DNA of 53,695 nt from Thermaurantimonas aggregans (GTDB lineage Bacteria > Bacteroidota > Bacteroidia > Flavobacteriales > Schleiferiaceae). The stretch spans positions 1 to 53,695 of the forward strand of contig NZ_BHZE01000020.1 of assembly GCF_003851885.1 (NCBI RefSeq), read 5' to 3'. Made by a program: the position numbers and the translations under genes. Below, in pieces: positions 3,508-7,996 of the stretch; positions within the stretch are counted from its first letter, which is position 1; every line of letters begins with the position of its first letter. The notes beneath the pieces are model-generated. The model was not told where the DNA came from. It did not search any database and was given only the letters and a program-made list of their open reading frames with translations.

Positions 3508-4341
3508 ATGCCTTTAATCACCCTCACATCCGACTATGGATTGCGCGACCATTATGTAGGTGCTCTTAAGGCATTAATTTATCAATATCACGAATCGGCT
3601 AAAATCATCGATATTTCGCATCAGATATCTACCTTCAAGGTATCGGAAGCTGCAGCCGTACTGCTCTTCGCTAGGCAATACTTTCCAGAGAACAGTGTGC
3701 ACATCGTCTGCATAGACGAAAATCCGGTAAGCGAAGCCGCCTCAAGCCGAATTTTAGCGGGCTACATTGAGGGCCAGTATTACATCACCGCTGATAATGG
3801 CTTTTTAGGGTATATAAACTTCCATAAGACAGCAGCTAAAGTGGTAGAAATTCCCATAGATGCTAACGACCGCATCAGTTGGCGTGCCCATACGATGGCA
3901 AAAGCAGCTGCAGCCATTGCAAAAGAGATAGACTTGGAACAAATCGGCTATGACTCCGGCGAGTACCTGTCAAATGGCTTTCCACATCCGTATTTTCGAA
4001 ATAACGAAACTCAACTTTTGGCTCAAGTGATTTACATCGACGAGTATGGCAATATTTTAACCAATGTGCACAAGCGCTATTTTGAGAAAAACTTTCAACG
4101 TTCGTCGTTTGAGATTAAAATTCGCAACAACGCTATTCGCAAACTGGTAACAGGCTACCAAGAGCTGAAGACCAGAAATACAGGTGAGGCATTTGCACTG
4201 TTTAATGCAGCCGGATTTCTTGAAATTGGCCTAATTAACAGTGCTAATGTACATCAGCCCAAGGGCTATGCACGAAGCCTTGGCGCTGATAAATTGTTGG
4301 GAGTAAAAACCGGAGATACTATAACAATAGACTTTCAATGA
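3508..4341 (+). CDS. SAM hydroxide adenosyltransferase (DUF62) family protein
   Basis: A 277-residue member of the SAM hydrolase/halogenase (DUF62) family. Characterised members outside specialised halogenases split S-adenosylmethionine into adenosine and methionine with water. Visible features are the N-terminal TLTSDYG and HYVGALK motifs, IIDISHQI at 33-40, and DNGFLGY at 96-102. The family's Asp-Arg-His triad is plausibly D70, R81 and H128 here, but the surrounding VDPGVG and FHGRD motifs are altered (CIDENP and WRAHTM), so activity is inferred. The C-terminal half looks like the usual beta-barrel domain. The ATG start opens a six-gene run, and the stop overlaps the next start by 4 bases. 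Confidence 0.82.
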   Translation: MPLITLTSDYGLRDHYVGALKALIYQYHESAKIIDISHQISTFKVSEAAAVLLFARQYFPENSVHIVCIDENPVSEAASSRILAGYIEGQYYITADNGFLGYINFHKTAAKVVEIPIDANDRISWRAHTMAKAAAAIAKEIDLEQIGYDSGEYLSNGFPHPYFRNNETQLLAQVIYIDEYGNILTNVHKRYFEKNFQRSSFEIKIRNNAIRKLVTGYQELKTRNTGEAFALFNAAGFLEIGLINSANVHQPKGYARSLGADKLLGVKTGDTITIDFQ

Positions 4342-4628
4342 TTCGAATTGTAAAAATGACTTTTAGGCCCGAGACTGTTACTGAATTTTTAACCATTTTC
4401 GAACAATCCAAAGAAAAAATTCGCCAACAGCCGGGCTGTCATTCACTGAAGCTTGTAAACGACAAAGAGAACTCCAACGTGTTTTTTACAATTTCAGAAT
4501 GGGAGCATCAGGACTTTCTGGAACAATATCGCCGAAGTGAACTTTTTAATACTGTTTGGGCGGCCACAAAAGCCCTCTTTGCCGACAAGCCAGAAGCCTG
4601 GTCAGTAGATGTGTTATATGATTTGTAA
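4338..4628 (+). CDS. Antibiotic biosynthesis monooxygenase (ABM) fold protein
   Basis: A 96-residue single ABM/dimeric alpha-beta barrel domain. Recognisable are the opening IVKMTFRPETVTEFLTIFEQ, the central PGCHSLKLVND, and ISEWEHQDFLEQYRRSELF, which matches the typical W-x3-A/D-x2-H/Y segment. This fold includes quinol monooxygenases (YgiN), IsdG-type haem oxygenases and many proteins of unknown function. No substrate can be assigned. Its ATG overlaps the stop of the SAM-hydrolase gene (ATGA), which implies translational coupling. A ChaN-like haem-binding protein follows 10 bases later, so a haem link is possible but is only an inference. Confidence 0.8.
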   Translation: MIRIVKMTFRPETVTEFLTIFEQSKEKIRQQPGCHSLKLVNDKENSNVFFTISEWEHQDFLEQYRRSELFNTVWAATKALFADKPEAWSVDVLYDL

Positions 4629-4638
4629 AGATTCTTGA

Positions 4639-5508
4639 ATGAAGCGAAAAACCATTCTTCCCCTTTTTATTGCCATAACCATGAGTGTGTTCACATGGGG
4701 TCAACAAAATCCTTTGCTTTATAAAATTTTCGATAAAAACGGAAAATCCATCCGTTGGGAAAAAGTGCTGAAAAAAGCAGATGAGGCAGAAGTTGTATTT
4801 TTTGGCGAATACCACGACGATCCTGTTATTCACTATCTTCAGTTGCAACTTCTCCATCACTTGGTCGAGTCTGAAGAAAAGCTCGCTCTGGGACTGGAGA
4901 TGTTTGAGTGGCAAGATGCGGAACTGCTGAATGCCTACATGAACGGCAAAATCGATCAAAAAACCTTTACCAGCGAGGCAAAATCCCTTTGGCCAAATTA
5001 CAGGACAGACTACAGCCCTATGGTAGAACTTGCAAAGCGCAAAGGAGTAGCTGTATTTGCCTCTAATGTTCCACGTGCATGGGCCTCGGCTGTATTCAAG
5101 GGGGGTTTTGAGGCTTTGGATTCGATTTATTCGGAACTGAAACAATACCTACCACCTCTACCCATTCCGTACGAAAGCCAACTTCCTGGCTACCGCAATA
5201 TGCTGAAAATGGCACATGGTCACGGAGGTGAAAATTTGCCAAAGGCTCAGGCATTGAAAGACGCTTCAATGGCCTGGAGTGTAGTACAGCATCTTGAAAA
5301 AGGCTTTAAAATCCTTCATCTAAACGGTACGTATCACACCAACAATTTTGAAGGCATTATCTGGTATTTGGAAAAATATCGGCCTAAGACGCGATACTTC
5401 ACTATTGCAATGGTACGACAGGCCGATGTACGGTCATTGAAAAGGGATTTTCGAGGCCTGGCTGATGTAATCATTGCAGTGCCCGACGATATGATTCGCA
5501 CCCATTGA
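4639..5508 (+). CDS. ChaN-family (TIKI superfamily) haem-binding exported protein
   Basis: This 289-residue protein has a signal peptide (MKRKTILPLFIAITMSVFTWGQ) with no lipobox cysteine, so it is probably periplasmic. It carries the ChaN/TIKI signature: VVFFGEYHDD near residue 53 (the G-E-x-H motif), LGLEMFEWQD near residue 78, and HLNGTYHTNNF near residue 230. Campylobacter ChaN binds haem between two monomers and is tied to iron uptake. TIKI relatives are metalloproteases, so the role here is open. It sits third in the SAM-hydrolase operon. The next gene's ATG lies 11 bases past its stop. Confidence 0.85.
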   Translation: MKRKTILPLFIAITMSVFTWGQQNPLLYKIFDKNGKSIRWEKVLKKADEAEVVFFGEYHDDPVIHYLQLQLLHHLVESEEKLALGLEMFEWQDAELLNAYMNGKIDQKTFTSEAKSLWPNYRTDYSPMVELAKRKGVAVFASNVPRAWASAVFKGGFEALDSIYSELKQYLPPLPIPYESQLPGYRNMLKMAHGHGGENLPKAQALKDASMAWSVVQHLEKGFKILHLNGTYHTNNFEGIIWYLEKYRPKTRYFTIAMVRQADVRSLKRDFRGLADVIIAVPDDMIRTH

Positions 5509-5519
5509 TTGTGCCTCTA

Positions 5520-6338
5520 ATGAAAACTCTGCTGGTATTCGCGCATTGGGAGGAAGCCAAGAGTGTCGTTCAAAACTTCGACGCCAAATTGTCATCTTCT
5601 CCGTCATTTTTTCGCAAGTACTCAAATGACCAAATAGATATTCTTGTAACGGGTATGGGTATCCTAAATATGCAAGCCGCAGTGGTTCACTATTTTTCAA
5701 CGGAATCTACAGCTGATTGTGCCCTTAATGTTGGTTTGGCTGGCAGCGCTTTGAAGACATTGCACAGCTGGTTTGCGGCATCGAGTATACACTGTGACCC
5801 ATTTAAAACACATTACCCAGATCCTATCTTTTCAAAATTGCCCTATGCCACTCTCCATACTGTTCATCAGCCGGCCACCGAATCTGAAATGAAAAATCAG
5901 CCCGATAGCCTTTTTGATATGGAAGGTTACGGCTTTGTTTCAGGTGCAAAGCGGTTTCTTCAAAATCACCAATTCCATCTATTAAAATTCGTCAGCGATC
6001 ACGACGGAAAATCAGAGTCCATTAAAAAATCCCTTAATGCCTACAACGATTCGGTGATTAAGGCTATTGAAACGGCTTTGGCAGAGATACATCACGCCAT
6101 TTCTCTCACAGGCGACCGGCGATTGTATCACGACCTGGAAACCGCAATCAAAAACTTTTCAAACAAGCAAAAACTGAGCTTCACACAGACCCAACAGCTC
6201 TTGGAGCATTGTGTGTATCTGGTAAACGTGGAACAAAAACTAAGGGTAGATTCGGTATTGGCGGACAGCTATTTGAACATTCCGGACAGAGATAGAAGAT
6301 TTAAAGAAATCTGCAAAAGACTATACGCCGATGAATAA
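5520..6338 (+). CDS. Nucleoside phosphorylase-like protein with C-terminal extension
   Basis: A 272-residue protein. The first 170 residues follow the PNP/MTAN pattern: LLVFAHWEEA at the N-terminus (as in the E-containing opening of MTAN), TGMGILNMQAA at 44-54, NVGLAGS at 70-76, DMEGYGF at 133-139 and KFVSDHDGK near 156-164. E135 and D160 fall where nucleosidases keep their ribose-binding Glu and catalytic Asp. The rest, about 100 residues, is predicted helical and charged and is longer than in MTAN (about 230 residues in total). The enzyme may cleave an adenosine-type nucleoside. Substrate identity is inferred only from the fold and from the neighbouring SAM-related genes. I chose ATG 5520 over a TTG that overlaps the chaN stop. 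It overlaps the next gene by 8 bases. Confidence 0.75.
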   Translation: MKTLLVFAHWEEAKSVVQNFDAKLSSSPSFFRKYSNDQIDILVTGMGILNMQAAVVHYFSTESTADCALNVGLAGSALKTLHSWFAASSIHCDPFKTHYPDPIFSKLPYATLHTVHQPATESEMKNQPDSLFDMEGYGFVSGAKRFLQNHQFHLLKFVSDHDGKSESIKKSLNAYNDSVIKAIETALAEIHHAISLTGDRRLYHDLETAIKNFSNKQKLSFTQTQQLLEHCVYLVNVEQKLRVDSVLADSYLNIPDRDRRFKEICKRLYADE

Positions 6339-7320
6339 GCGGATAGTATACATCGAAAGACAACTGCTGAATCACAGCGGTGTGCGCAGAATTTTAGATA
6401 AAATAAAACCAAGCGCAGTGGAGTGGATAGAGCACTACAAAGAGGTACTCAACCAGCGCGGGGGCAATTGGCGATTACAGAAGCAATATCAATCTCTCAT
6501 TTTGGCTCATAGGAAAGATGCCTTCTACTACGAAGCCAGCCCATTGACCCACTCGATTGAATTCAAGCATTTTTATTACAACACTTTAGCCATTAACTGC
6601 CTCTATGATTGTGAGTATTGCTACCTGCAAGGCATGTTTAATACCCCTCATCTGGTATTATTTCTTAACAACAACGATTTTATTAAGGCAGCTGATACTC
6701 TTTCGCAGCGATTACAAAAGCCTTTTTACATGGCATTATCGTACGATACCGACTTGCCGGCTGTGGAACATTTGTATCCGTATTGCGATGAATGGATACG
6801 CTATGCCGAAACAAATCCATTGATCACCATTGAAATCCGAACCAAAAGCAGCATAACATCCTTCTTTGCCAATAAAAATCCTGTAAACAACGTCGTGCTC
6901 TCCTGGAGTGTGAATCCTGAAGATATTGCCAGGCGTTTTGAACCCCTGACCCCCTCCCCTGCCGTGCGAATAAAAGCTGCCTCTCAAGCTCATGAAATGG
7001 GTTGGCCAGTGATGCTTTGTATTGATCCCATCGTTTACACGAGGGATTTTAATGCAGTATACAGCACATTTATTTCCAACTTGAGAAAATACTTTGATCC
7101 AATCCGGCTCTATGGCATCAGTATCGGCACTATGCGCATGAACACAGATTATCTAACCAACATTCGGAATCAGCGCCCTGATAGCCAATTATTATGGTAC
7201 CCATTTGAGCGCAAAAATGGGCACGCATTTTATCCGAAAGAGGTGCGGCAAGAACTCGTGGAAACTGTAACTAATGCGCTGAAAAAAGAAGGTTTTAATC
7301 GAATTTTCGTGTATGACTGA
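6331..7320 (+). CDS. Spore photoproduct lyase-like radical SAM protein
   Basis: This 329-residue protein resembles SplB along its whole length. The radical-SAM cluster ligands are C90, C94 and C97 in NCLYDCEYCYLQG, the SPL-type CxxxCxxC spacing, with Y96 and Y98 kept. TIEIRTKSS and VVLSWSVNPEDIARRFE further on are also SPL-like. The segment that carries the hydrogen-donor Cys (C140/C141) in real lyases reads LSYDTDLPAVEH here, with Y138 in that place and no Cys until C152. The organism shows no sign of sporulation. A repair role or another radical reaction on nucleic acid or a nucleotide are both possible. It overlaps the genes on both sides (8 bases each), which implies coupled translation. 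Confidence 0.85.
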   Translation: MNKRIVYIERQLLNHSGVRRILDKIKPSAVEWIEHYKEVLNQRGGNWRLQKQYQSLILAHRKDAFYYEASPLTHSIEFKHFYYNTLAINCLYDCEYCYLQGMFNTPHLVLFLNNNDFIKAADTLSQRLQKPFYMALSYDTDLPAVEHLYPYCDEWIRYAETNPLITIEIRTKSSITSFFANKNPVNNVVLSWSVNPEDIARRFEPLTPSPAVRIKAASQAHEMGWPVMLCIDPIVYTRDFNAVYSTFISNLRKYFDPIRLYGISIGTMRMNTDYLTNIRNQRPDSQLLWYPFERKNGHAFYPKEVRQELVETVTNALKKEGFNRIFVYD

Positions 7321-7996
7321 GCGAATTATTCTAACCGGCCACACCAAAGGCATTGGGGCCGAAGTATGCAAACTTTTGGCGGCATCAAAAAAGTACGACG
7401 TTGTCGGAATAGCGCGTTCACAGTCGCCCATTGCGGGAATTCGTCAATTTGCTTGCGATCTCTCCAACAGCCTCGAAACCCAAAAACTTTGTGAACAGCT
7501 CAAAAGTGAAAATCCTAAATATTTGATTGTCAATGCTGGTGCAAATTCTATTAAACCTGCAGAAAGCTATTCAATACAAGAAATTGAACACATCTATCAG
7601 CTTAATCTGGTATCGCCTGCCATGCTTATCCGGGCATGTCTTCCGGCTTTGTTGCGTAACGAAGGTCATATCATCGTGTTAGGCAGCTTTTCAGCCCTCG
7701 AAGTGCGCCGTTGGAACAACTATTACGGTTCCGCTAAAGCCGGATTACACCACTTGACCAAAAATCTTTTTGAGCAATACCGAAAGCAAAATCTTCGCGT
7801 AACGCTCATTGTACCCGATATAGTGTCAAGTGACTTTTATGCGCAGCAAGAATTTCAGCCAGATCCATCTCCTCAGTATTCGATTTCACCAGCAGAAGTT
7901 GCTCAGTTAGTTTTTGATCTGGTCGAAAAAAAGACGGATTACGTTCCCACAGAGATCGTAATCCGCCCACAAATGTTTAAACTCGACCGAAAGTAA
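7313..7996 (+). CDS. Short-chain dehydrogenase/reductase (SDR)
   Basis: A classical SDR of 227 residues: cofactor motif TGHTKGIG at 8-15, NAGAN at 74-78, and probable catalytic residues N98, S125, Y138 and K142 (the YxxxK in YYGSAKAG). R35 follows the second strand (VVGIARS), which favours NADP(H). PDIVSSDFY near residue 183 is the usual post-catalytic segment. The substrate is unknown. It is the last gene of the 3508-7996 operon and overlaps the radical SAM gene by 8 bases, so the two products may act in sequence. It ends 2 bases from the convergent pgk stop, with no hairpin visible between them. Confidence 0.88.
   Translation: MTERIILTGHTKGIGAEVCKLLAASKKYDVVGIARSQSPIAGIRQFACDLSNSLETQKLCEQLKSENPKYLIVNAGANSIKPAESYSIQEIEHIYQLNLVSPAMLIRACLPALLRNEGHIIVLGSFSALEVRRWNNYYGSAKAGLHHLTKNLFEQYRKQNLRVTLIVPDIVSSDFYAQQEFQPDPSPQYSISPAEVAQLVFDLVEKKTDYVPTEIVIRPQMFKLDRK

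Follow-up and report, generated by a model that had tools for sequence, protein, structure and literature searches.

A compact run of six genes and its last three members

We analysed a stretch of 53,695 nucleotides from Thermaurantimonas aggregans (Flavobacteriales, Schleiferiaceae; contig NZ_BHZE01000020.1, positions 1 to 53,695, forward strand), hereafter the window. Between positions 3508 and 7996 it carries six genes on the plus strand, the last three of which encode a nucleosidase-like protein (N), a radical S-adenosylmethionine (SAM) protein resembling spore photoproduct lyase (SPL), denoted R, and a reductase of the short-chain dehydrogenase/reductase (SDR) family (S). These three genes make up a separate module found across several bacterial phyla and rare in Bacteroidota, and the three genes upstream of them look like bystanders.

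5520..6338, plus strand: N, nucleosidase-like protein of 272 residues, with a fold of the methylthioadenosine (MTA)/S-adenosylhomocysteine (SAH) nucleosidase (MTAN) type over residues 1-197 and an extra helical C-terminal part (approximately 200-272)
6331..7320, plus strand: R, SPL-like radical SAM protein of 329 residues (SPL 3.8e-16), with the CX3CX2C motif at C90/C94/C97
7313..7996, plus strand: S, SDR-family reductase of 227 residues (adh_short 2.3e-27), with S125/Y138/K142

Along the six open reading frames (ORFs), the successive spacings are an overlap of 4 bases, a gap of 10, an overlap of 4, and two overlaps of 8. The third value becomes a gap of 11 if N starts at the ATG at 5520, which we consider a likelier start than the TTG at 5505 that opens the listed ORF (5505-6338). 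The coordinates and spacings of these tightly packed genes agree with a model-generated annotation made from the sequence (the original prediction), and its family calls (SAM hydrolase, ABM, ChaN, SPL-like radical SAM and SDR) are backed by Pfam and NCBIfam. Its description of N as nucleosidase-like, which is weak by sequence, turned out to be firm by structure, as detailed below.

N, R and S are neighbours across bacterial phyla

An earlier genome scan with the window protein alone gave no matches. Scanning a single genome for each species with an alignment of three rows yielded 328 relatives of R, the best 80 of which were fetched; these come mostly from Clostridia, plus one Bdellovibrionales bin and one Campylobacterales bin. 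N lies adjacent to and upstream of R in 72 of the 80 loci (in L037 as broken pieces) and is fused to R in 4 more. In the remaining 4, N was not detected: L033 begins close to the end of its contig, an N-like but diverged ORF is present in L034 and L078, and the three-row profile recognises none in L075. S is directly downstream of R in 57/80 loci and elsewhere in the stretch in 7/80; in six loci (L041, L057, L061, L066, L074 and L081) it starts 639 to 1595 bases downstream of R. Two of the latter, both from Clostridiales, carry an extra ORF with a CPKCG...CQFCG ribbon between R and S (L061:9001-9609 and L041:5242-5754). When neighbouring genes on the same strand within 2500 bases were grouped by clustering, without family names, no further family recurred near R as N and S do; the next commonest groups were found at 17 loci with 2 members and at 13 loci with 5.

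To avoid picking the most similar loci, we also drew 120 genomes evenly from Lachnospiraceae, the family of the Catenibacillus genome G285 that carries locus L013, and searched them with profiles built from R loci at thresholds that we set ourselves (N, 1e-20; R, 1e-10; S, 1e-60). The weakest accepted matches were 2.6e-45 for N, 3.5e-107 for R and 1.8e-75 for S, and matches to the R profile at 9.9e-28 and weaker were classed as SPL-type. R (E<=3.5e-107) was found in 22/120 genomes, and 8 more genomes had only the weaker, SPL-type matches (7e-20 to 1e-27). N stands beside R in all 22 genomes, in five of them only as part of the gene, and S is adjacent in 16 (15 downstream, 1 upstream). By contrast, neither N nor S was found beside any of the 8 SPL-type loci fetched from the 11 SPL-type places (Fisher test, R versus SPL-type loci: N, 1.7e-7; S, 5.1e-4). 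At the level of whole genomes, the 17 of 120 with N and the 18 of 120 with S all fall inside the 22 genomes with R, including two genomes in which the S gene is on another contig than R; hypergeometric p values are 1.4e-16 for N and 6.7e-18 for S, under the assumption, which does not hold, that genomes are independent. The linkage of N, R and S is far beyond chance. Both kinds of SPL superfamily gene occur together in 3 of the 22 R genomes versus 2.0 expected, that is, at about chance, and the idea that R substitutes for SPL was rejected on this ground.

In addition to the 4 fusions among the 80 loci, the Fusobacterium vincentii record L005 (NZ_CP084075.1) encodes N and R in one ORF of 623 residues, followed by an SDR. 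This 2.1 Mb record is filed as a plasmid with one annotated feature and looks like a chromosome. Fused proteins occupy about five places in the R tree, mostly next to unfused ones (L012/L024, L068/L011, L059, L080 with L075, and L005), and their linkers differ in sequence, which together speak for repeated fusion and not for a sequencing slip. The broken or cut loci L037, L044 and L073 were excluded from the reference lists and the tree, and the alignments used hand-picked subsets of the remaining rows. The tree joins the window protein to that of Schleiferia (support 100/97); its deep branches are long, and the tree program warned of long-branch joins. L083, whose title reads Thermoflexaceae (listed under Chloroflexota), falls within Lachnospiraceae, and its label may belong to another, similarly named taxon.

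Sequence and structure of the three proteins

By sequence and fold, R is assigned to the SPL superfamily of radical SAM enzymes. When compared with solved structures, the R profile matches SPL and nothing else, save one match at chance level (0.068 compared with 1.2e-20 for SPL). In the structural model of the fused relative L012, the R part superimposes on SPL 4rh0 with a VIA Z of 33.4 (root-mean-square deviation (rmsd) 2.6, 320 aligned residues), and the Z to 4fhc is also 33.4. The model as a whole has a predicted local distance difference test score (pLDDT) of 89.6; its linker (310-328) is disordered and the predicted template modelling score (pTM) is 0.60, and for these reasons we make no claim on how the two domains pack. 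The CX3CX2C motif (C90, C94 and C97 in the window protein) is present in 82/82 R sequences. Equally invariant are the positions that correspond, judging from alignments, to SPL Y96, Y98, D143, K174 and R304.

What sets R apart is the position of the SPL hydrogen-donor cysteine (Gt 140/Bs 141), which, by alignment, is Tyr in 75, Phe in 7 and Cys in none of the 82 sequences; the window protein has Tyr138 there. An excerpt of PMC3742179 indicates that the C141A and Y99F mutants of SPL are expected not to regenerate SAM, with 5'-deoxyadenosine (5'-dA) about equal to the spore photoproduct (SP) repaired. Since the donor cysteine is missing, R probably consumes SAM. Furthermore, scores to TIGR04070 are below the curated 400 bits (67.9 for the window protein and 106.7 for L026). 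With the donor residue missing and the score short of the curated cut-off, the present evidence does not warrant the name spore photoproduct lyase for R.

Sequence matches of N are weak (PNP_UDP_1, 0.075; NCBIfam nucleosidase, 4.8e-8). However, the AlphaFold2 model of the window protein, made with 48 relatives, has a mean pLDDT of 93.9, and its residues 1-197 match the MTA nucleosidase 2h8g_B with a VIA Z of 23.4 (rmsd 2.4, 194 aligned). Chlamydia CT263 gives a Z of 22.6 (rmsd 2.2, 179 aligned, 23% identity), and the matches include the Helicobacter pylori aminodeoxyfutalosine/MTA nucleosidases, with other MTANs at nearly equal Z. Beyond the range that matches, the last ~75 residues of the model make up an additional helical part. 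In 73 recognised unfused N proteins, a set that does not include degenerate copies, the catalytic-type residues are E12 (71/73), E135 (73/73) and D160 (73/73), and the window protein has all three. For E. coli MTAN, E12 and D197 are named in PDB titles, and we take E174 to be the third catalytic residue. When the N profile is aligned with the S. aureus MTAN 3bl6, it shows a gap of 26 residues immediately ahead of the DME motif; in MTAN, the segment missing here belongs to the base pocket.

TIGR01704 has no match in the window genome (G000) or the Schleiferia genome (G235), and L064 reaches 28.1 versus a cut-off of 73.8. These two genomes contain two other phosphorylase-superfamily genes each, and 13 of 14 relatives without R have one to three; given these similar counts, N is not plainly a substitute for a lost gene. 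In S, the glycine motif (G9/G13/G15) and S125/Y138/K142 are conserved in 66/66 sequences, and the protein is probably NADPH-dependent.

The upstream genes include an older pair

The three genes that precede N in the window are as follows.

3508..4341, plus strand: DUF62-type SAM hydrolase (SAM_HAT; SAM_HAT_N/C 1.1e-31/7.3e-16), in the run and outside the module
4338..4628, plus strand: ABM-fold protein (ABM 2.1e-14), the usual neighbour of DUF62, outside the module
4639..5508, plus strand: ChaN-like protein (Cofac_haem_bdg (ChaN) 2.1e-53), with an N-terminus that looks signal-like by eye, outside the module

The family almost always carries the DUF62 SAM hydrolase (55 of 56 well-assembled genomes), and ABM follows it directly in 29 of 30 family loci fetched (3508-4628 in the window; L087-L116), the remaining one, L100, being a short stretch in which DUF62 alone is visible. 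None of the 30 loci, whose stretches end ~850 bases past ABM, contains ChaN, N, R or S, and the genomes concerned are also without R genome-wide, apart from a weak match in G214 (8.6e-4). Thus, DUF62 and ABM are an old, conserved pair that occurs without the trio.

At E<=1e-10, R was found in one of 198 genomes of the phylum Bacteroidota, namely the window genome. Among 88 genomes of the family, it is present in the window genome and in one other, at 57% identity, in addition to one weak match (8.6e-4). The other carrier, Schleiferia thermophila, has all six genes in the same order and, by eye, the same flanking ORFs. Among the loci seen, these two genomes alone have the first three genes joined to the last three and ChaN at this position. 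We infer that in both genera the three-gene module arrived next to the older pair, a single transfer being the simplest route, and DUF62, ABM and ChaN look like unrelated neighbours of the trio.

The wider proposal of the original prediction, that all six genes serve one SAM and redox pathway, has in its favour the compactness of the run and its complete conservation in Schleiferia. Given that the DUF62-ABM pair stands without the other four genes in 29/30 loci, in genomes that also lack R, and that DUF62, ABM and ChaN do not recur near the trio elsewhere, we consider it very improbable and rejected it. The same prediction had singled out the last three genes as the strongest core, and this is what we observe: they are kept together across phyla, with N-R fusions, and their linkage is far above what was to be expected had they been neighbours by chance, so that the outcome which the prediction had named as its refutation did not occur. 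The trio is nearly absent from Bacteroidota, the phylum whose genomes it had proposed to survey.

Possible working of the module

We put the chance that N, R and S constitute one dedicated enzyme system, in which R spends SAM, N clears the adenosyl product and S carries out a reduction, at just short of even. In such a system, R would generate a 5'-deoxyadenosyl radical on its substrate, as its fold and motif suggest. SPL returns the radical through a Cys and a Tyr and thereby rebuilds SAM; R, without the Cys, would use up one SAM per turnover and leave an adenosyl product, most simply 5'-deoxyadenosine. N, which its extra C-terminal part would keep close to R and which is sometimes fused to it, would hydrolyse the glycosidic bond of this product and relieve the inhibition of R, and S would reduce either the product of R or the released sugar. 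An excerpt of PMC6079011 states that 5'-deoxyadenosine (5'-dAdo) inhibits radical SAM enzymes and that a nucleosidase or phosphorylase removes it. The chemistry put forward in the original prediction, a radical SAM reaction with clean-up of the adenosyl by-product and reduction by the SDR, would fit the absence of the hydrogen-donor cysteine.

Several observations weigh against this reading. A second cysteine, at position 73, is present in 77/82 R sequences and is a candidate donor; it is absent in the window protein, which has Thr73 where most Clostridial relatives have Cys, in Schleiferia and in L011, L068 and L069. According to part of PMC5368176, the C. acetobutylicum SPL uses C74 as the donor, so that a donor at 140/141 is not universal among SPLs; R position 73 may or may not be the counterpart of this C74. 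We did not adopt the view of R as a C. acetobutylicum-type SPL, since the SPL-type loci L143 and L146, which have a Cys near that place, are accompanied by neither N nor S. Furthermore, of 18 R-carrying genomes examined outside Schleiferiaceae, 17 already have an ordinary MTAN that passes the cut-off, so that free 5'-dAdo does not obviously call for another nucleosidase, and the base specificity of N may differ, given the missing 26-residue segment. The N copies of L124, L128, L132, L137 and L034 lack the catalytic motifs and retain a YPD motif, most of these copies with the C-terminal part as well, so that catalysis by N is dispensable there; near R in L135, just a C-terminal part of N is seen. 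The tie between N and R thus seems to go beyond catalysis. Finally, the partners are not always recognisable: in the Lachnospiraceae sample, N was not found at 1e-20 in 5/22 R genomes, which have only parts or diverged copies beside R, and S was not found at 1e-60 in 4/22, and 16 of the 80 loci yielded no S at 1e-30 (two of these, L016 and L021, stop at a contig edge, and a third, L037, has S in broken pieces).

Part of this evidence is better explained by a biosynthetic pathway in which R catalyses addition of the 5'-deoxyadenosyl radical to an unsaturated substrate, N strips adenine from the adduct and S reduces the exposed sugar end. MqnE catalyses such an addition, and aminofutalosine nucleosidases take adenine off the adduct. 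The retention of N alongside an ordinary MTAN is accounted for better by this scheme than by removal of free 5'-dAdo, and the aminodeoxyfutalosine/MTA nucleosidases and CT263 among the structural matches of N, the missing segment before DME and the presence of S in R genomes even when unlinked are all in line with it. However, R is SPL-type by sequence and fold, the likeness of N to aminofutalosine nucleosidases carries little weight as MTAN folds are alike, and the catalytic motifs of N are lost in some lineages; we therefore regard the scheme as unlikely, while giving it more than token weight. Under both this scheme and the dedicated-system reading, N should be an active nucleosidase; what separates the two is the compound that R sets free.

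The degenerate N copies directly upstream of R, which mostly keep the YPD motif and the C-terminal part, together with the repeated N-R fusions, could also mean that N is mainly a structural or regulatory subunit, binding R through its C-terminal part and YPD loop, with nucleosidase activity secondary. Against this stands the near-complete retention of the catalytic-type residues among the 73 recognised N proteins, a set that excludes the most degenerate copies, and we consider such a role rather improbable. More doubtful still is that R is a remote SPL acting as a lyase of nucleic-acid photoproducts or other damage, with N and S processing the released fragments. The invariance of the five SPL positions in 82/82 sequences and the close structural match of the fused relative to SPL would suit such an enzyme, whereas the absence of the hydrogen-donor cysteine, the chance-level co-occurrence with SPL-type genes and the presence of R in gut bacteria and in non-spore-formers such as Fusobacterium and Schleiferia would not.

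Relation to known systems

The families of N, R and S are already known; what appears new is the combination, in which a radical SAM enzyme of the SPL superfamily has partners of its own. A search of Creative Commons-licensed PMC literature by title or start of the abstract found no description of the set. R shares with spore photoproduct lyase (SplB; TIGR04070, Pfam SPL) the fold, the CX3CX2C motif, the positions of two radical-chain Tyr residues and those of the Lys and Arg, but differs from it in the donor position, in its score and, compared with SPL-type loci, in its neighbours. Similarly, N has the fold and the catalytic-type residues of MTA/SAH/aminofutalosine nucleosidases (MTAN and MqnB; CT263), and is distinguished from them by the gap before DME, the extra C-terminal helices, a score below the TIGR01704 cut-off and, among the 120 Lachnospiraceae genomes, its restriction to those with R.

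MqnE belongs to a different radical SAM family from R. The futalosine pathway of menaquinone synthesis (MqnE with MqnB) also joins a radical SAM enzyme to an MTAN-fold nucleosidase, as outlined in an excerpt of PMC3937554; unlike in that pathway, no family beyond N and S recurs near R. Salvage of 5'-deoxyadenosine and 5-deoxyribose by DrdK, DrdI and DrdA likewise deals with a nucleoside by-product of radical SAM enzymes, but the kinase, isomerase and aldolase that it employs (described in part of PMC6079011) have no counterparts among the recurrent neighbours of R.

Other assignments were rejected. A defence system was dismissed on the grounds of 0 PADLOC matches at E 0.001 for 7 proteins, a riboswitch because the sole Rfam match in 8 loci is a tRNA, and a phage gene because no relative was found in viral contigs. 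Two phage-labelled GenBank records from human faeces, L147 and L148 (MT835514.1 and MT835770.1), contain R, N and S amid ORFs that look bacterial by eye and are probably mislabelled bacterial contigs.

To our knowledge, the SPL fold is associated with one reaction, the repair of the spore photodimer. R is a relative of SPL without the hydrogen-donor cysteine, found in gut bacteria and non-spore-formers with a nucleosidase and a reductase of its own. A bolder proposal, which we think improbable, is that gut Clostridia, Fusobacterium and scattered other bacteria use the trio as an undescribed pathway, biosynthetic or catabolic, in which R couples 5'-deoxyadenosyl to a substrate, a bound N with an altered base pocket strips adenine, and the SDR reduces the sugar-derived end. 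If so, a superfamily known for DNA repair would build carbon skeletons with SAM as the ribose donor. Should the dedicated-system reading hold, R would be a radical SAM enzyme in physical contact with the very nucleosidase that clears its product, and would offer a route to other chemistry of the SPL fold; with the genes so closely grouped, the question can be put directly to the test.

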